Shown one piece after another: positions 4,457-13,356 of a stretch of DNA of 17,224 nt. A program made the position numbers and the translations under genes. Source of the DNA: Candidatus Adiutrix sp. (lineage in GTDB: Bacteria; Desulfobacterota; Desulfarculia; Adiutricales; Adiutricaceae); the NCBI GenBank assembly GCA_031283395.1, contig JAITBV010000072.1, forward strand, positions 1 to 17,224, written 5' to 3'. The notes beneath the pieces are model-generated. The model saw only the letters and a program-made list of their open reading frames with translations, was not told the DNA's origin and made no database searches. Position 1 is the first letter of the stretch, and each line of letters opens with the position of its first letter.

Positions 4457-5920
4457 TTAAACGCGCTTCCCGGCCGCATCCAAGGCTTTCCTGTAGACCA
4501 TCTCGTAAAGCGCGGCGGAACTGTCCCAGGAAAAATTACAGGCCATGCCCCGCCGGACGGCATCCACCCATCGGTCCTGATCGTTGAAATCGCGGACGGC
4601 CCGGCCCAGGACCTCCAGAAAAGCCTCGGCTGAATACTCGTTGAATTTGTAGCCGGTCCCCTCCCGCGGGTTGACCGCCAGGTCCACCACGGTGTCCTCC
4701 AACCCGCCGGTGCCGCGCACCACCGGGATGGCACCGTAACTTAAGGCGTAAAGTTGTTCCAGGCCGCAGGGTTCGAAACGCGAAGGCATTATGTAGATAT
4801 CCGAACCTGACAGTATATGGCGCAGAAGGACCTGGTCGTTGGCCCTTTTGTAGCCCAGCCGGCCCGGCCAGCGTTCGGCCGAATCAGCCAGAAAATCCTG
4901 ATAATGGGTTTCCCCCAAACCCATAAGGGCCAGGTTTATCGGCAAGTCCATCATGCGGTCCATGGCCTTGACCACTATATCAAGACCTTTGCGGGACAGG
5001 AGACGGCAGACCATGGAGACCGTAGGCAATCCGGAGTCGGAGAAACCGAAAAGTTCGGCCAGGTGAAGCCGGCACTTTTTCTTGCCGGAAAGATCGCCCG
5101 GGTAATAGACGGCCGCCAGATGGGCATCGGCGGCCGGATTCCACTGGGTGTAGTCAATCCCGTTCTGCACCGGTATGAGCCGGTCCTGACGGCTTAAGAG
5201 AACTCCTTCCAAACCCATGCCCATGGCGGGAGTCAGAGTTTCCTGGGCGTATTTCCGGCTGACGGTGGTCAGGTAATCCGCAGCTAGGAGGCCGGCTTTG
5301 GTCAGATTCATCCGGCCGTGGAATTCCAGCCCCTCGCTGGTGAAAAGATTCCAGTCCAGCCCGGTCAGGGCAAAATCATAGTGAAGAAACAGGCCCTGGT
5401 TGGCCAGGTTGTGATAAGTGAAGACCGTGCCGGCTCTGCCAAGGGTGGGGAATTGCCCCCGCCAGCTTTTCAGGTACATCGGCACCAGGCCGGTGGTCCA
5501 ATCGTGGCAATGGATGACCACCTCCTCTTCCGGCTGGGCCAGCCGATCAGCGGCTTGAAGGGCGGCCCGGGAAAAGAAGATGAAGCGCTCGGCATTGTCG
5601 TCGTAATCGCCGAACTCGTTGCCGTAAATGCCTGGCCGGTCGAAAAGCTCGTCACAACCTATCAGCACCGCCTGATGCCCCTCACCGGTGTCGCTCCTAA
5701 AAAAACGGGCTTCGCGCCTTGAGATAGACAAATCGATCTCCGAACGCCAGGAATCAATTTCTTCCAAGGGCATCTGGCCGGCGTTTCTATGCTTGGGAGC
5801 GATGACCATCACCTGGTGGCCCAGGCGGGCCAGGGATCTGGGCAGATAAAAGGAAACATCGGCCAAACCGCCCACTCGGGAGAAAGGGACCGCTTCAGGG
5901 GTAATGAAGATGATCTGCAT
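4457..5920 (-). CDS. glgA: Glycogen synthase, ADP-glucose type (GT5 family)
   Basis: Transfers glucose from ADP-glucose to the end of alpha-1,4-glucan chains in glycogen synthesis. The 487-residue length is normal for bacterial GlgA. The N-terminal starch-synthase catalytic domain (1-about 250) starts MQIIFITPEAVPFSRVGGLA and has HCHDWTTGLVP (137-147) and TYHNLANQG (168-176). The C-terminal GT-B domain has the CRLLSRKGLD block (305-314; Lys311 aligns with the E. coli ligand-binding Lys305) and PSRFEPCGLEQLY (379-391; Glu383 aligns with the E. coli catalytic Glu377), followed by RGTGGLEDTV (402-411). One oddity: the usual lysine of the K-x-G-G-L-A-D-V motif (Lys15 of E. coli) is Arg15, encoded by CGA. 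First gene of a probable glgA-kinase-phosphoesterase operon. No strong Shine-Dalgarno is seen, but the ATG matches the family start. Confidence 0.96.
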   Translation of the reverse strand: MQIIFITPEAVPFSRVGGLADVSFYLPRSLARLGHQVMVIAPKHRNAGQMPLEEIDSWRSEIDLSISRREARFFRSDTGEGHQAVLIGCDELFDRPGIYGNEFGDYDDNAERFIFFSRAALQAADRLAQPEEEVVIHCHDWTTGLVPMYLKSWRGQFPTLGRAGTVFTYHNLANQGLFLHYDFALTGLDWNLFTSEGLEFHGRMNLTKAGLLAADYLTTVSRKYAQETLTPAMGMGLEGVLLSRQDRLIPVQNGIDYTQWNPAADAHLAAVYYPGDLSGKKKCRLHLAELFGFSDSGLPTVSMVCRLLSRKGLDIVVKAMDRMMDLPINLALMGLGETHYQDFLADSAERWPGRLGYKRANDQVLLRHILSGSDIYIMPSRFEPCGLEQLYALSYGAIPVVRGTGGLEDTVVDLAVNPREGTGYKFNEYSAEAFLEVLGRAVRDFNDQDRWVDAVRRGMACNFSWDSSAALYEMVYRKALDAAGKRV

Positions 5921-5962
5921 AAGATGACCAGCCCCTTCCCGTTGTGTTGGAGAGATATTCTA

Positions 5963-5990
5963 TATTTAACCGCGGCAGCAACCCAGTCAA
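5963..5990 (-). promoter_or_regulatory. Possible second, weaker promoter of glgA
   Basis: On the minus strand TTGACT (5985-5990) is followed after 16 bp by TAAATA (5963-5968). It lies just downstream of the better promoter at 6001-6029 and would shorten the leader to about 35 nt. The -10 match is modest and the spacer is GC-rich, so it may be chance. Confidence 0.3.
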
Positions 5991-5991
5991 A

Positions 5992-6019
5992 ACCATTTCT
6001 ATTATATACCATTTATATT
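5992..6019. repeat. Direct repeat (ACCATTTNTATT, period 16) over the glgA promoter
   Basis: Two 12-base copies, at 5992-6003 and 6008-6019 on the plus strand, differ only at the N position. The first overlaps the -10 box of the glgA promoter and the second lies in its spacer. Tandem sites offset by 1.5 helical turns could be an operator, but the region is AT-rich and chance similarity is possible. Confidence 0.45.
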
Positions 6020-6029
6020 TAATTATCAA
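6001..6029 (-). promoter_or_regulatory. Strong predicted sigma-70-type promoter of the glgA operon
   Basis: On the minus strand TTGATA (6024-6029) and a perfect TATAAT (6001-6006) are separated by exactly 17 AT-rich bases. Transcription would start near 5994, about 74 nt upstream of the glgA ATG. This is the best promoter match I see in the window. Confidence 0.7.
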
Positions 6030-6057
6030 GAAGGAACCCGGCCAGACCAGAGCATTG

Positions 6058-6068
6058 GTTTGCCAAAC
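6058..6068. repeat. Short palindrome GTTTG-C-CAAAC over the rpoH -35 box
   Basis: A perfect 5-bp inverted repeat with a one-base centre spans the proposed -35 hexamer (6060-6065) of the rpoH promoter. The position suits a repressor or activator site, but the arms are short and no regulator is identified. Confidence 0.35.
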
Positions 6069-6088
6069 TTCAGCTCCGGCGCTATAAT
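6060..6088 (+). promoter_or_regulatory. Predicted sigma-70-type promoter of rpoH (distal)
   Basis: TTGCCA (6060-6065) and a perfect TATAAT (6083-6088) are separated by exactly 17 bp. Transcription would start near 6095, leaving a leader of about 190 nt before the rpoH ATG at 6289. Its -35 is about 30 bp from the -35 of the divergent glgA promoter, so the two polymerases would bind side by side. Confidence 0.65.
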
Positions 6089-6101
6089 ATCGGCCGGGAA
6101 A

Positions 6102-6181
6102 AAGCGACCTCAATCAAATCCTTATTGGCATCTTCCCAAGACGGTTTTAGAATCCGGACGAATTATTGTGGGTGGTCGCTT
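6102..6181 (+). repeat. Inverted repeat AAGCGACC / GGTCGCTT in the rpoH leader
   Basis: A perfect 8-bp inverted repeat (arms 6102-6109 and 6174-6181) encloses 64 bp. It starts only about 8 nt after the proposed start of the distal rpoH transcript and ends just before the second promoter-like sequence. In RNA it could close a large stem-loop at the head of the rpoH leader. Its function is unknown. Confidence 0.4.
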
Positions 6182-6185
6182 AAGG

Positions 6186-6212
6186 TTGACACGGGGCCGG
6201 TTTAGGTATAAG
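6186..6212 (+). promoter_or_regulatory. Possible proximal promoter of rpoH
   Basis: A perfect TTGACA (6186-6191) is followed by TATAAG (6207-6212) at a short 15-bp spacing, or by TAAGCT (6209-6214) at 17 bp. Transcription would begin around 6219, about 70 nt upstream of the ATG at 6289 and almost on top of the in-frame GTG at 6226, which argues for the ATG as the real start. Confidence 0.4.
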
Positions 6213-6227
6213 CTTAAATATTCCGGT

Positions 6228-6252
6228 GCTTTTCCTGGTCGGTCCGGAAAGC
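6228..6252 (+). other. Potential hairpin in the rpoH leader
   Basis: GCTTTTCC (6228-6235) can pair with GGAAAGC (6246-6252) with one bulged T and a 10-nt loop. It lies 37 nt before the proposed rpoH ATG, next to a G-rich stretch. Together with the 6102-6181 stem it suggests a structured leader, but this is unproven. Confidence 0.3.
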
Positions 6253-6288
6253 CGCGGGCGCCGGGGCGGGGGGACGAGCTTTTCATAT

Positions 6289-7404
6289 ATGACCGGTGAA
6301 GCCAGCAAAAATAACTCGGGCGACCAAACCTTGCCGGCCGGAAGACCGGAAGCGGCCCCCCCGGCCAAAAGAAATCCAGGCGCCCCTCCGGCCCGGAGAA
6401 TTCAAGGCGGTCCGCCTGTTACCAAATATACGGCCGGACCGCCAGCGCTTAAAACTCCGGCCGTTCCACCCGCCGAAAGAAAGGCCGCCTCACCGCCGGC
6501 GCCTAAAATCCCGGCTCCCCCTCCGGCCATCCTGACGCCGGCCCCGCCCCCGGCCACCGACCCATTACGGGCCTATCTGGCCGAAGTGCGCCAATTCAAG
6601 CTCCTGAGCCGGGAGGAAGAAAATCGCCTGGTAAAATCATACAAGGCGACAGCGGACCCGGAAACAGCCCAGAGGATCATAACTTCCAATCTCCGGCTGG
6701 TGGTCAAGATCGCCATGGACTTTCAAAGTCACTGGCTCAACAACTTGTTGGACCTTATCCAAGAAGGCAACGTGGGGCTAATGCAAGCCCTGAAAAAATT
6801 CGACCCCGGCCGGGGAGTCAAATTTTCCTATTACGCTTCCTATTGGATCAAGGCTTATATCCTGAAGTACATCATGGACAACTGGCGCCTGGTCAAGGTA
6901 GGCACCACCCAATCCCAACGCAAGCTCTTTTACAATCTGCGCAAGGAGCGGGACAAGATAATCAAGGAAGGCCTGACCCCGGCTCCCAAACTCTTGGCGG
7001 AAAGACTGGGCGTGGGTGAAGCCGAAGTCGAAGAAATGGATCTGCGACTTTCGGCCGGCCGCGAGATTTCTCTGGATGCCCCTCTAAGTCAGGACACCGA
7101 CCAGACCCAGAGCAGTTTACTGCCGGCTGACATACCCGGGGCCGATCATCTCCTGGCCCAACTACAGTTGAATGAACTCCTGAAAGCCAAGCTGGAAAAA
7201 TTCCGCACGGCTCTGTCGCCACGTGAGGGCCTGATTCTGGAAAAACGCCTGTTGGCGGAGACCCCGGTCACCCTTCAGGAAATCGGAGAAGAATTCGGCA
7301 TCAGCCGGGAACGGGTCCGCCAGCTGGAAGAGAGGCTTAAAAAGACCCTCCTGGTTTTTTTGCGCCGGGAAATGCCGGATCTGGAAGGAACGGAGCTTGA
7401 TTAG
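6289..7404 (+). CDS. rpoH: RNA polymerase sigma-32 factor with proline-rich N-terminal repeat tail
   Basis: Alternative sigma factor of the heat-shock (RpoH) class. Numbered from the ATG at 6289 (371 residues): proline/alanine-rich tail (about 20-92), start of sigma region 1.2 (DPLRAYLAEVRQF, 91-103), region 2 core-binding and -10 recognition (about 130-205, with DLIQEGNVGLMQAL and YYASYWIKAYI), the RpoH-specific box QRKLFYNLR (210-218), and a region 4 helix-turn-helix (TLQEIGEEFGISRERVRQL, 328-346). The RpoH box separates this from RpoD and RpoS. The tail is unusual: RpoH normally has only about 15-20 residues before region 1.2. An in-frame GTG at 6226 would add 21 residues but has no ribosome site and nearly coincides with a possible transcript start. 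The ATG also lacks a strong Shine-Dalgarno (GGACGAG lies about 12 nt away). Two promoters precede it. Probably first gene of an operon running to at least 11249. Confidence 0.93.
   Translation: MTGEASKNNSGDQTLPAGRPEAAPPAKRNPGAPPARRIQGGPPVTKYTAGPPALKTPAVPPAERKAASPPAPKIPAPPPAILTPAPPPATDPLRAYLAEVRQFKLLSREEENRLVKSYKATADPETAQRIITSNLRLVVKIAMDFQSHWLNNLLDLIQEGNVGLMQALKKFDPGRGVKFSYYASYWIKAYILKYIMDNWRLVKVGTTQSQRKLFYNLRKERDKIIKEGLTPAPKLLAERLGVGEAEVEEMDLRLSAGREISLDAPLSQDTDQTQSSLLPADIPGADHLLAQLQLNELLKAKLEKFRTALSPREGLILEKRLLAETPVTLQEIGEEFGISRERVRQLEERLKKTLLVFLRREMPDLEGTELD
6355..6555 (+). repeat. 27-bp-period coding repeat: nonapeptide xPPAxxxxA in RpoH tail
   Basis: Seven consecutive nine-residue units plus a partial eighth share Pro-Pro at positions 2-3, mostly Ala at 4 and Ala or Gly at 9: APPAKRNPG, APPARRIQG, GPPVTKYTA, GPPALKTPA, VPPAERKAA, SPPAPKIPA, PPPAILTPA, PPPA. 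Early units are lysine/arginine-rich and later ones lose charge. The register is perfect with no insertions. At the DNA level the units have diverged, so selection or age has kept the peptide pattern rather than the exact sequence. The segment is predicted to be disordered. Confidence 0.85.
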
Positions 7405-7412
7405 GAGCCGCT

Positions 7413-7436
7413 TCCCTGGATCAATTCATTCAGGGA
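7413..7436 (+). other. Hairpin between rpoH and the TPR gene
   Basis: TCCCTG (7413-7418) and CAGGGA (7431-7436) form a 6-bp stem with a 12-nt loop, extendable by two pairs past one bulged T. It lies 9 bp after the rpoH stop. There is no immediate T-run (five T occur about 10 nt later), so it is more likely an mRNA processing or stability element than a full terminator. Confidence 0.3.
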
Positions 7437-7467
7437 GCCTCGGGTGTTTTTGGAAAGGAGCCGCCCT

Positions 7468-9315
7468 GTGGTCAGGATCACATCTGCCGGGAAAAGCGCC
7501 GGGATACGCCTCTTGGCGTTAATAATCCTGGGCGCCGGCCTAGTCGGTGCGTCTCGGGAGGCTATGGGCGATGACGGTTTCGAGGCCGACCGCTACTATT
7601 ACTTTCTCAAGTCCACCTACGAAGAGCTGAACCGGAATGATGCCGCGGCTTTGAAGGCCATGGTCAAGGCTGCCGATCTGGGGCGGGGTTCATACCGTTT
7701 AAAGCTGGAAGCCGCCAGGCTCTATTCCCGTACGGGCGACAACCGGAACGCTTTGAAATACGCCAGGGCCGCCATGACCCTGGACCCGGAAGAACCAATG
7801 GCCCACCTTTTGACCGCCTGGCTGGCTGGCTCTGAAGGCGACCGGGAAACGGCCGAGATGGAATACTTGAAAGTTTTGGAACTGACCCCGGGCAACCCAG
7901 AGGCCCTTTACTGGCTGGGAACTCTGTATTTTGACAGTAGTCGCCACCGGGAAGCGGAAAAATTCTTCAAACGTCTGACCGTGGCTGACCCTGGTGCGGT
8001 CTCCTTTTATCACCTGGGGCATTTTTACCAGCGCCTCAATCGCAAAAAAGAGGCCATTGAAGCCTTGGTGGCTGCTTTGAAGAAGGATCCGGACTTCACC
8101 GACGCGCTTGATGATCTGGCCGGACTGTATGAAGAAACAGGCCAGCCCAAATCAGCGGAGAAGACCTATCGCCACCTGATGAAGTTCCGTCCCCAGGCGG
8201 CCCGAAACGGCCTGGCCAGGCTGTTACTTAAAACCGGCCGCCGGGCGGAGGCAGAAAAAATTGCGGCCGAAATCCTGTTGGAAGAGAGTCGCTTCCGCCA
8301 TGAGGCCGGTCTGAAGTCGGGCGAGGGCCCGGAGTATGACGAGCTTGATCTCAAACTCAAGCTTGGCCTGATCTACATGGAAATAAAGCGCCCTAACGAA
8401 GCCATAGGTGAATTTGAAGCGGTATTGAAAGCCCGGCCCGGGCATGACCGGGCCTCCTATCTTCTGGCCTCCGCTCTTATGGAGCGACAGGAAGCCGGAG
8501 GCAAGGCCGAAGCCGCCCGGGCAGCCGAACTTCTTGAAGCCATTGAGCCGGAATCATCACTTTATGTGGAGGCGCGTCTCCTTCTTACGTCTTCCATTCA
8601 AGACCGGGACGACAGGCAGGCGTTGTCCCTGATTGAAGAGGCCGCCAGGTTCAGGCCTGATTCCCTGCGTCTCAAGCTGGCCGAGTCACACTTCCTGGAG
8701 CGCTTAGGCGAATTGGAGAAGGCCCGGACTGTTCTGGCCCGGACTGTTGAAACATTCGGGCCGGAAATAAAACAGCGGCAACATAATCAGATTTTTCAGA
8801 AGGGCAAGACCAGGCGACGGCGCCCGGCCGTTCAGGAAGACGGGCGCATCTTCCCCAGCGAAGCGGAGATACTTTTCCGCCTTGGGACTTTGGAGGATCG
8901 CCTCGGACGCCAACCGGCCGCCATCGAATCCATGCGCCAAGCCATCAACCTCAACCCTTCCCACGCCGATGCGCTTAATTTCCTGGCTTACACCTGGGCT
9001 GAACGACGGGAAAATCTGGTCGAGGCCCTGGCTATGGCAGAAAAGGCCGACACCCTGAAACCAGACCAGGGTTATATTCTGGACACCGTGGCTTGGGTCC
9101 ACTACCAGATGGGTCAACCTCAGAAGGCTCTGCCCCTTTTGGAACGGGCCGTCCCTCTTTCTCGCCGGGATCCGGTGGTGCTGGATCACCTAGGTGATGT
9201 ACTCGCGGCCCTCGACCGGAACCAAGAGGCCTTGGACGCCTATCGGCAGGCCTTGGCGGGTGGTTTCGCCAACCAGGAGGAGCTGAATGAAAAAATCAAA
9301 AAATTGGCCCGGTGA
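7468..9315 (+). CDS. Secreted tetratricopeptide-repeat protein upstream of LolB-like gene
   Basis: A 615-residue TPR scaffold protein, probably periplasmic or attached to the envelope. I place the start at GTG 7468 because AAAGGAG (7454-7460) sits 7 nt before it; an in-frame GTG at 7444 has no such site. The N-terminus has basic residues and a hydrophobic stretch (13-28) typical of a signal peptide, with cleavage possible near GAS (27-29) or AMG (32-34). TPR-type helices run from about 75 to 265, 295 to 430 and 465 to 600; a basic insert (KTRRRRP, 447-453) interrupts the series. The C-terminal block (ALNFLAYTWAERR, ILDTVAWVHYQMG, VLDHLGDVLAALDRNQEAL) resembles the TPR family found next to lolB in other proteobacteria. 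The next gene overlaps it by 29 bp. Its likely role is protein-protein interaction in lipoprotein or envelope assembly; partners are unknown. Confidence 0.85.
   Translation: MVRITSAGKSAGIRLLALIILGAGLVGASREAMGDDGFEADRYYYFLKSTYEELNRNDAAALKAMVKAADLGRGSYRLKLEAARLYSRTGDNRNALKYARAAMTLDPEEPMAHLLTAWLAGSEGDRETAEMEYLKVLELTPGNPEALYWLGTLYFDSSRHREAEKFFKRLTVADPGAVSFYHLGHFYQRLNRKKEAIEALVAALKKDPDFTDALDDLAGLYEETGQPKSAEKTYRHLMKFRPQAARNGLARLLLKTGRRAEAEKIAAEILLEESRFRHEAGLKSGEGPEYDELDLKLKLGLIYMEIKRPNEAIGEFEAVLKARPGHDRASYLLASALMERQEAGGKAEAARAAELLEAIEPESSLYVEARLLLTSSIQDRDDRQALSLIEEAARFRPDSLRLKLAESHFLERLGELEKARTVLARTVETFGPEIKQRQHNQIFQKGKTRRRRPAVQEDGRIFPSEAEILFRLGTLEDRLGRQPAAIESMRQAINLNPSHADALNFLAYTWAERRENLVEALAMAEKADTLKPDQGYILDTVAWVHYQMGQPQKALPLLERAVPLSRRDPVVLDHLGDVLAALDRNQEALDAYRQALAGGFANQEELNEKIKKLAR
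8721..8748 (+). repeat. 15-bp tandem duplication in the TPR gene
   Basis: GGCCCGGACTGTT occurs at 8721-8733 and again at 8736-8748, an in-frame period of 15 bp that gives ARTVL-ARTVE in the protein (residues 419-428). Likely a small local duplication lengthening a TPR helix. Confidence 0.6.
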
Positions 9316-11310: not shown

Positions 11311-13356
11311 ATGGCCACGGAACGCAAGAGCGGGGGAATCCGCAACATCGGCATAATCGCTCATATCGATGCGGGCAAGACCACCCTCACCGAGCGGATA
11401 CTCTATTACACCGGCCGGACCCACAAGCTCGGCGAAGTCCATGACGGCGAGGCCACCATGGACTTTACACCCGAGGAGCAGGCCCGGGGCATAACTATAA
11501 TGAGCGCGGTCACCACCTGCGACTGGAAAAATGCCCGCCTGAATCTCATCGACACCCCCGGACATGTGGATTTCACCATTGAGGTAGAAAGAAGCCTCAG
11601 GGTCCTTGACGGCGCGGTGGGGGTATTTTGCGCCGTGGGCGGAGTCCAACCCCAGTCGGAGACGGTCTGGCGCCAAGCCGACCGCCACGGTGTGCCTAAA
11701 CTGGTCTTTGTCAATAAAATAGACCGCGTGGGCGCCGATTTCGACCAGGTCATGGCTCAGATCAAAACCAAGCTTGGAGCCGTGCCCTTGGTCCTGACCC
11801 GGCCTTACGGCCAGGAAGAAAATTTCAAAGGTGTTCTGGATGTTCTCCGGCGCCGAGTTTATTTTTGGGACAATGATGACCTTGGGGCGAAGATGAAGGA
11901 GACAGGGCCACCATCGGATTTGGCCGCGGCCCTGGAGTCGGATCGGGCCGCTCTGCTGGAGATCCTGGCCGAAAACGATGATGAGATCATGGAAGATTAT
12001 TTGGAAGGCCGGGAACCTTCGGAAGATAGGCTCAGGGCGGCCATCAGGCGGGCCACCCTGGGTCTCAGGCTGGTACCGGTTTTCTGCGGGGCGGCCCTGC
12101 GCAATAAAGGGGTGCAGCCCCTGTTGGACGGCATCGTGGATTATCTGCCCTCCCCGTCCGATTTACCGCCTTTGACCGCTCAAGATACCAAGGGCGCCCC
12201 TCTCCTGATTGAATTCAGGGAAAAAGCGCCTTTGGCCGCCCTAGTGTTCAAAATACAAATGGTTGACCAGGGGCGAAAGATGAGTTTTCTGCGCCTCTAC
12301 AGCGGCCGTCTGGCCGAAGGCGACGAGGTGCTTAATCCCCGCACGGGCCAAAAAGATAAAATCGGCCGCATCCTGCGTGTTCACGCCGGCAAGCGCGACC
12401 GCATCGGAGAAGCCAGGGCGGGCGATCTGGTGGGAATAGTGGGGCTCCGATCGGCTGGCACCGGCGACACTATCTGCTCACCTGACCGCCCGGTGCTTTT
12501 GGAATCCATCCAGGCGGCCGAGCCTGTCATATCCATCGCCCTGGAACCGGAGAATTCGGCCGACCTGGACAAACTGGCCGATACCCTCGCCAAACTGACC
12601 GAGGAAGACCCCACCTTCAAAGCCAAAGTGGATGACCAGAGCGGGCAAACCATCATCTCCGGCATGGGCGAATTGCACCTGGAAGTGCTGACCCAGCGTC
12701 TGGCCCGCGAATTCGGCCTGAACGTGCGCTCCGGCAAACCCCAGGTAGTCTTCCGGGAGACCATCAGTCAATCCGCCGCAGGCGAAGGCTTGTTCGACCG
12801 GGACCTGGGCGGAGCCCGCCACTGGTCCAAGGCCATCGTGACCGTCGCCCCCCTGCCCCGAGGGGATGGCTATCAGTTCGAAAACTGCCTAGCTGCCCCG
12901 GAAACCATACCCCAGCCGCTCTTGGCCGCCGCCCTGACCACCTTGGCCGAAGGAGGCCATTCCGGCCCCCTTCAGGGTTTCCCACTTCTGGATATCAAGG
13001 CCGGACTGACCGAACTGGAATTGGGCGAAGGAGAAGACAGCGAAGCTGTGGTCCGCACAGCCGTGAGCCTGGCCCTGCGTGAAGCCCTGGTCCGGGCCGC
13101 ACCCACCCTTATGGAACCCCTGATGCGTTTGGAAATCACCATCCCTGATGAATTCCTGGGTGAAATCATTGGCGATTTGGCTGCCCGGCGAGGCCGGGTG
13201 GAAGAGATGACCGGACAGAGCGGCTTCAAAGTGCTGACGGCCCTGGCCCCTTTGAGTGAACTGTTCGGCTATTCCACGGCCATAAGGTCCCTGACCCAGG
13301 GCCGCGGCTCATTTGCCATGCACTTCTCTCATTACGATGTGGAAGCTCGCAAATAA
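11311..13356 (+). CDS. fusA: Elongation factor G-like translational GTPase, divergent paralogue
   Basis: A 681-residue EF-G family protein that couples GTP hydrolysis to movement or recycling of the ribosome. GTPase motifs are intact: P-loop AHIDAGKTT (17-25), RGITI (59-63), DTPGH (81-85), NKID (135-138) and CGAALRNKG (259-267). Domain II (about 300-390), domain III (about 404-480, with SGMGELHLEVL), domain IV (about 481-600) and domain V (about 605-680) follow in normal order. Domain IV is atypical: the tip loop that in canonical EF-G reads Y-H-D-V-D-S-S-E is replaced by LGEGEDSE (571-578), so the histidine corresponding to E. coli His583 is Gly572. This points to one of the paralogous subfamilies (EF-G2 or spd type) rather than the housekeeping factor, which is usually encoded next to rpsL-rpsG-tuf. 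The ATG is preceded only by a weak GAAG. It could be the last gene of the rpoH operon. Confidence 0.9.
   Translation: MATERKSGGIRNIGIIAHIDAGKTTLTERILYYTGRTHKLGEVHDGEATMDFTPEEQARGITIMSAVTTCDWKNARLNLIDTPGHVDFTIEVERSLRVLDGAVGVFCAVGGVQPQSETVWRQADRHGVPKLVFVNKIDRVGADFDQVMAQIKTKLGAVPLVLTRPYGQEENFKGVLDVLRRRVYFWDNDDLGAKMKETGPPSDLAAALESDRAALLEILAENDDEIMEDYLEGREPSEDRLRAAIRRATLGLRLVPVFCGAALRNKGVQPLLDGIVDYLPSPSDLPPLTAQDTKGAPLLIEFREKAPLAALVFKIQMVDQGRKMSFLRLYSGRLAEGDEVLNPRTGQKDKIGRILRVHAGKRDRIGEARAGDLVGIVGLRSAGTGDTICSPDRPVLLESIQAAEPVISIALEPENSADLDKLADTLAKLTEEDPTFKAKVDDQSGQTIISGMGELHLEVLTQRLAREFGLNVRSGKPQVVFRETISQSAAGEGLFDRDLGGARHWSKAIVTVAPLPRGDGYQFENCLAAPETIPQPLLAAALTTLAEGGHSGPLQGFPLLDIKAGLTELELGEGEDSEAVVRTAVSLALREALVRAAPTLMEPLMRLEITIPDEFLGEIIGDLAARRGRVEEMTGQSGFKVLTALAPLSELFGYSTAIRSLTQGRGSFAMHFSHYDVEARK

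Follow-up and report, generated by a model that had tools for sequence, protein, structure and literature searches.

The window, i.e., the whole stretch of 17,224 nucleotides from Candidatus Adiutrix sp. analyzed here, contains a sigma-32 (RpoH-like) gene on the forward strand (6289..7404, +) that opens with an ATG and encodes 371 residues. The initial annotation had called the product a sigma-32, and this is borne out by its score against NF005143 (RNA polymerase factor sigma-32, subfamily; 251 bits against a cut-off of 241). The proteobacterial RpoH equivalog model TIGR02392 was the top match of the scan, yet its cut-off was missed (258.4 versus 323.1 bits). Judged by these profile scores, the gene is a member of the sigma-32 subfamily and not of the TIGR02392 equivalog. 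A consensus scan placed two sigma-70-like promoter matches upstream of the gene (6060..6153, +; 6060–6088 with 11/12 and 6125–6153 with 10/12 positions); the scan of positions 5900–7600 on both strands gave four matches compared with 0.8 in shuffles and is no evidence of function. Downstream, the listed open reading frame of a TPR-rich protein (7444–9315, +) opens 39 bases past the sigma-32 stop, and further on elongation factor G (11311–13356, +; TIGR00484 over cut-off) adjoins a Cache-domain histidine kinase. Ribosomal proteins were not recognized among the window proteins tested, and a plasmid search returned no match covering 80% of the query among those listed (the best 5 of 341).

The protein contains sigma-70 region 1.2 (6559..6630, +; Pfam PF00140), with the first modelled helix at residue 92, region 2 (6679..6888, +; PF04542), and region 4 (7213..7335, +; PF04545), all over cut-off, and region 3 (PF04539) just under it (22.3 versus 25.3). 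Region 1.1 had no counterpart among the four Pfam families listed for the window protein. Among solved proteins, the nearest in sequence is Escherichia coli sigma-32 (8hkc_E; E = 2e-41, aligned over window residues 93–354), which also ranked first by fold. After region 2.4, the aligned stretches read TTQSQRKLFYNLRKE in the window protein and TTKAQRKLFFNLRKT in 8hkc_E, with QRKLF.NLRK well matched; we take this stretch to be the RpoH box. A link to the anti-phage protein MzaA was rejected, since both matches, one from PADLOC (98.9 bits) and one from NCBIfam (136.7 bits; cut-off, 800), span only the general sigma domain.

The close relatives of the protein come from “Candidatus Adiutrix” metagenome-assembled genomes, other deltaproteobacterial metagenome-assembled genomes, and the complete genome Smac51, which we take to be termite-gut bacteria, the order being presumably Adiutricales. 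Seven of them (P0002–P0005, P0007, P0009, and P0010) share the start of the window gene, their leaders beginning with MTG[E/D] (MTCE in one), which supports the ATG at 6289. The list of open reading frames also allows a GTG at 6226 as start, and in P0001, the database copy of the window protein, the predicted start lies 14 residues later, still ahead of the entire repeat array described below. One further sigma-32 relative, P0011 (560 residues, on a 4,385-base contig), exceeds most of the other listed proteins by approximately 200 residues.

A polar leader of 17 residues (6289..6339, +; MTGEASKNNSGDQTLPA) is followed by eight nonapeptides of the form x-[R/K]-x-x-[A/G]-x-P-P-[A/V] (6340..6555, +), the last of which lacks the R/K. 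In order, the units read GRPEAAPPA, KRNPGAPPA, RRIQGGPPV, TKYTAGPPA, LKTPAVPPA, ERKAASPPA, PKIPAPPPA, and ILTPAPPPA, and the array abuts TDPLRAYL, the first residues of region 1.2, in exact register. The initial annotation had described seven units plus a partial eighth from 6355; regular nonapeptides do precede region 1.2, but there are eight complete ones, and they begin at 6340. Self-identity at lag 9 is 31/63; among 20,000 shuffles of the residues, none scored this high at any lag between 2 and 24. The units have diverged at the DNA level, as had been noted before, any two of them having 9 to 18 of 27 bases in common, and with 33 to 67% DNA identity between units, a recent tandem duplication in the window is ruled out. 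The claimed charge gradient from basic early to neutral late units is weak, a hand count giving 0, +2, +2, +1, +1, +1, +1, and 0 per unit.

When the window and 80 related loci (L001–L080) were read in six frames, runs of at least four units were confined to sigma-32 tails (eight sequences). We consider it extremely improbable that the array is not translated, or that it is a composition artefact of GC-rich DNA, with the true start near region 1.2. No support was found for such a start; moreover, the leader is conserved in seven relatives, the register is kept at the protein level with varied codons, the runs occur nowhere else in the 81 sequences, and a scrambled control (see below) was empty below E = 0.01. 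The conserved leader, the register, and the codons likewise rule out a mistranslated start. A search of the protein database with the tail only returned P0001 and P0003 as the sole matches at E ≤ 1 among 1,096 candidates.

The RpoH N terminus had been described as normally very short, which holds for the E. coli protein, whereas it is less true of the relatives. Taking the most upstream ATG, which over-extends some tails (109, 133, and 859 residues), the tails of relatives L022–L080 are mostly 23 to 93 residues long. In E. coli RpoH (8HKC; PMC10216364), the core that aligns with the window protein is preceded by 15 residues without a repeat array, compared with 92 residues in the window protein. 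In that structure, this N terminus was left out of the model, for which the authors name disorder as a possible reason (PMC10216364).

Across 41 genomes of the order, exactly one sigma-32 per genome scored over cut-off in 40 and none in the remaining one (G035); a second sigma-32 paralogue was thus not seen in these relatives. Arrays of 2 (G007) to 10 (Smac51) units are present in 25 of the 40 proteins, the window being additional. The consensus unit, x-R-x-x-A-x-P-P-[A/V], has R, A, and P at every third residue. Across the 26 sequences, which contain 109 units in all and were given equal weight, position 2 is R in 81% and K in 5%, position 5 is A in 67%, position 7 is P in 63%, position 8 is P in 94%, and position 9 is A in 40% and V in 35%, whereas positions 1, 3, 4, and 6 vary widely. 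Fifteen of the 40 genomes (G012, G022–G030, G036, and G038–G041) were excluded by eye before the consensus was made because their tails did not show at least two in-register units that end close to region 1.2. When this profile was later applied to them, the excluded tails yielded a single unit each (scores of −2.2 to 8.7), compared with at least 18.4 for the 26 tails that were kept. Among the excluded, G012 has proline units that are out of register, G040 has an excess at lag 9 (reached by 2 of 500 shuffles) without matching units, and G022–G030 include tails that read as strongly acidic.

When each tail was scored with a profile trained without members of more than 75% core identity, the unit register of the training set being fixed beforehand from the full consensus, 23 of the 26 tails exceeded all 500 shuffles; in the other three, the score of the tail was matched by 9 (G002), 8 (G006), and 10 (G007) of 500 shuffles. 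Among lags 4 to 19, the top self-match was at lag 9 in 20 of the 26 tails and at lag 18 in three, and in two tails lag 9 was weak (reached by 48 of 500 shuffles in G008 and by 20 of 500 in G004). The proposal that the repeat is a maintained feature is thus upheld: the period of nine is retained in related RpoH orthologues, and close relatives do have such a tail, not random sequence, in this stretch.

The array ends at a constant offset from region 1.2 in all eight proteins compared (the window protein and its seven close relatives), in which a script counted 5 to 10 units. Some total lengths step by nine residues (371, 362, 362, and 353), others do not (370, 379, 341, and 342), and the latter may reflect differences in the leader or the C terminus; with lengths so mixed, they give no clean proof of whole-unit change. 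Codons for the proline at position 8 agree in 86 of 201 within-protein pairs, with 76.2 expected from the proline usage of each gene, which suggests that the units are old and that the constraint lies mainly on the protein. In the tree, long arrays occur in the pair formed by the window and G009 and, apart from these, in G001, the other five members of whose clade have two to five units. The simplest reading of this distribution is that the two sets of long arrays grew separately, with loss as a less simple alternative.

The tail could be a passive spacer, i.e., a stiff, soluble linker that needs only an extended shape and whose unit number drifts by slippage. The range of 2 to 10 units, the variability of positions 1, 3, 4, and 6, and the modelling of the tail as coil are in line with this idea, but R at position 2 and A/V at position 9 are retained across sigma cores that are 63 to 89% identical, and a spacer needs proline and not these residues. 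In addition, the register is common to unrelated proteins, as described below. We therefore regard a mere spacer as quite unlikely.

The specificity of the array was assessed with a second profile, A2, built from ten hand-chosen, in-register segments of 45 residues. Besides the window, 8 of the 41 genomes supplied rows, so that counts based on A2 are partly by construction. At E ≤ 1e-3, A2 matched 26 of the 41 genomes of the order, including 18 of the 33 from which no row was taken; elsewhere in the class, 2 of 22 genomes matched. At 1e-6, matches were found in 21 of the 41 genomes of the order, 13 of which supplied no row. Of 198 genomes sampled across the phylum, a draw that may include few others of the order and for which the first-pass screen is stricter at this limit, a single one matched, namely Smac51. 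A column-permuted A2 gave nothing below E = 0.0118 in the same 41 genomes and hence 0/41 at E ≤ 1e-3, whereas at E ≤ 0.1 it matched 7 of 41 genomes compared with 35 of 41 for the true profile. Many weak A2 matches in G022–G027 were excluded from the array counts. Together, the leave-out shuffles, the six-frame reading, and the scrambled-column control rule out GC-rich low complexity as the cause of the pattern.

Other Desulfobacterota sigma-32s resemble the window protein in carrying a hydrophobic-P-[A/V/S/T] motif before region 1.2. In a set of 60 (L020–L080 without L035), [LVIMF]P[AVTS], a motif chosen after reading the tails, lies 8 to 23 residues before region 1.2 in 54 (shuffle mean, 7.0; maximum, 16). 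Two of these, L020 and L021, belong to the order and are positive, leaving 52 of 58 outside it. Unlike the window protein, these sigma-32s have no run of at least four units, and by eye their tails are often acidic. In 12 of the 54 single motifs, an R or K follows the A/V at a distance of two residues, as it would in the array, and some of these 12 read LPAPR or LPTPR. Given these frequencies, the single motif seems to predate the array, and the arginine to do so only in part. Most simply, the array would have arisen by duplication of a single hydrophobic-P-[A/V] motif ahead of region 1.2, with growth probably proceeding by duplication of whole units.

The array is not restricted to sigma factors. 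Profile A1, made from ten sigma tails, also matched small proteins of no known family besides the sigma genes. Seventeen such orphan proteins of 131 to 280 residues each contain 7 to 19 consecutive nonapeptides, with R in 53% and K in 29% of units at position 2, A in 78% at position 5, and A in 77% at position 9; P at position 8 was the selection rule. Not included in this consensus are L168 and arrays that were shorter or found later (L181, L188, L190, L192, and L196–L198). In L196 (1423–1779, +), near-identical tandem copies of LPAFREFGD share up to 27 of 27 bases, i.e., a recent array expansion. No known family was matched by nine of the orphan proteins searched against Pfam or by three searched against NCBIfam. 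Their N termini fall into unlike types, one of which begins MSGKGLVG.F.FFGPDFI, and a homologue search, swamped by low-complexity words, gave no match at E ≤ 0.01 among 7,995 candidates scored.

The orphan genes, which occur in many genomes of the order, lie in a recurrent neighborhood, with a carboxypeptidase/lytic transglycolase on one side and nifU/nifS on the other. At least one of four marker genes is near the orphan array in 18 of 18 contexts (L153–L170), and markers are found on both sides in 7 of the 18. At L156, Pfam identifies the neighbors as a SIS/CBS protein, a DPBB lytic transglycolase, an S13 D-Ala-D-Ala carboxypeptidase, NifU, and a class-V aminotransferase, here called NifS-like. 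The NifU signature is also present in three of five further short loci, and the array and nifU share one contig in G015 and in G016. Near nifU, no orphan array gene was found in the DNA examined from seven genomes of the window clade, several contigs of which end near nifU.

In Smac51, a bacterial microcompartment (BMC) shell protein of an ethanolamine locus (L152:5760–6368, −) carries a C-terminal array (VPAMRNAAD, VPAVRQTPE, and so on) of four to five units with the same nine-residue spacing. The protein matches PF00936, its best NCBIfam match is EutM, below the cut-off of that model, and its gene adjoins EutB, an aldehyde dehydrogenase, and a second BMC protein. A shell tail with the array was seen in one genome only. 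In G009, the nearest sequenced relative of the window, whose 1.5-Mb genome may be incomplete, the only clear array is that of the sigma-32 tail; one further profile match (E = 0.02) falls in a 65-residue frame. The occurrence of the array in two non-sigma proteins of the order counts against a purely sigma-specific reading.

The geometry of the unit is suggestive. A polyproline-II helix has three residues per turn, so that nine residues make three turns and same-face residues of successive units are approximately 28 Å apart. The conserved positions 2, 5, and 8 are spaced at i, i+3, and i+6 along an extended proline-rich stretch, position 9 being conserved as well. With this spacing and a period of nine, R, A, and P would lie on one polyproline-II face. 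AlphaFold, run with 51 sequences, gave a low-confidence coil for the tail (block pLDDT, 41–69) up to the first helix at residue 92. The model is compatible with an extended, disordered tail and is no proof of polyproline-II.

On this basis, we tentatively favor, at somewhat less than even confidence, the reading that the tail is a disordered, polyproline-II-prone array that acts as a multivalent docking site. The tail would repeat a single short linear motif, [P/V/T]-P-[A/V]-x-R-x-x-A, every nine residues, and if it adopts the polyproline-II shape, the R2, A5, and P8 side chains of all units would be aligned on one face. A partner reading several units at once could then hold or deliver sigma-32, with the number of units tuning avidity. 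Judging by the relatives, the sigma-32 so handled is probably the only one in the cell. In the E. coli protein, a control region within region 2.1 is the contact site for DnaK, DnaJ, HtpG, and Ffh (PMC4823717).

The main rival to docking is a basic, polyanion-binding arm resembling histone H1, which would bind DNA, RNA, ribosomes, or polyphosphate and thereby tether sigma-32 to the nucleoid or hold it close to promoter DNA at the cleft of RNA polymerase. Of the 26 sigma arrays, 25 have a positive net charge per unit and one a charge of zero, all 17 orphan proteins have +0.67 to +1.75 per unit, and some orphan units (e.g., TPAKKEAAK) resemble bacterial H1 repeats. The H1-like protein AlgP is reported to act on polyphosphate granules (PMC9239181). 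Conversely, the same spacing is found at −0.5 charges per unit in the shell tail and at −0.2 per unit in L196, and the uncharged A5, P8, and A/V9 are conserved, so that charge alone is no explanation. We consider this arm a somewhat doubtful alternative.

The abundance of proline pairs near the gene start raises another possibility, namely that eight early PPx motifs tie sigma-32 synthesis to EF-P and translation capacity. Each window unit does contain a PP pair, but no more than 63% of the sigma units, and 10% of those in orphan proteins, retain the first proline of the pair. Stalling motifs are ranked in strength by the residue that follows PP, and in the 26 sigma tails, 75 of 87 such residues are A, V, S, I, or T, 11 are P, and one is G. 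With the first proline poorly conserved and mostly A or V following the pair, translation pausing fits poorly, and control of this kind is very unlikely.

A more specific form of the docking reading extends it to all proteins with the array. It posits a nonapeptide code specific to the order, in which a receptor reads [P/V/T]-P-[A/V]-x-R-x-x-A arrays of at least three clients and regulates sigma-32 by motif titration; we regard this as a doubtful proposal. The clients would be the single heat-shock sigma factor, the orphan array protein, and the ethanolamine-microcompartment shell protein, and the orphan array protein may be a competitor or scaffold that sets the amount of free sigma-32. Since G009 has a single clear array and no orphan array gene was found in the DNA examined around nifU in seven genomes of the window clade, the receptor idea cannot rest on co-occurrence everywhere.

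Several known systems bear partial likeness to the array. Among primary sigma factors, mycobacterial SigA and Streptomyces HrdB have a long extension before the conserved regions; these are not sigma-32s, unlike the window protein, and we know of no period-9 R-A-P register in either. The bacterial H1-like proteins AlgP and Hc2 have low-complexity basic repeats, as does the window array. AlgP varies by KPAA-type repeats. Hc2 is reported to vary in copy number by lysine-rich pentamers, whereas the unit in the window has nine residues with R, A, and P at every third. The array thus does not show the short lysine-rich tetra- or pentapeptide repeats of H1-like proteins, its unit being nine residues long with R at position 2 in 81%.

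The initial annotation knew of no described RpoH with such a tail, and our literature search agrees: nothing was found on RpoH or sigma-32 with a proline-rich repeat N-terminal extension, in a search that covered few subscription papers. Among the matches listed for sigma factors with disordered proline-rich N-terminal extensions, none was evidently about such a tail, and no such array was named among the matches listed for nonapeptide or proline-rich bacterial repeats (the best 10 of a larger set). Hence, the protein is of a known kind, a sigma-32, and the array module was found undescribed.

The regulation of sigma-32 is a textbook circuit that was established chiefly in E. coli. Most sampled genomes of the order keep a repeat array on their single sigma-32, and the register of the array has outlasted much other tail sequence. 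If the tail is indeed a docking site, the heat-shock response would have a new regulatory input, and the repeat peptide could serve as bait for finding the receptor. If the arrays are read as a code, motif titration would be a control layer for RpoH that was not found in the literature searched.
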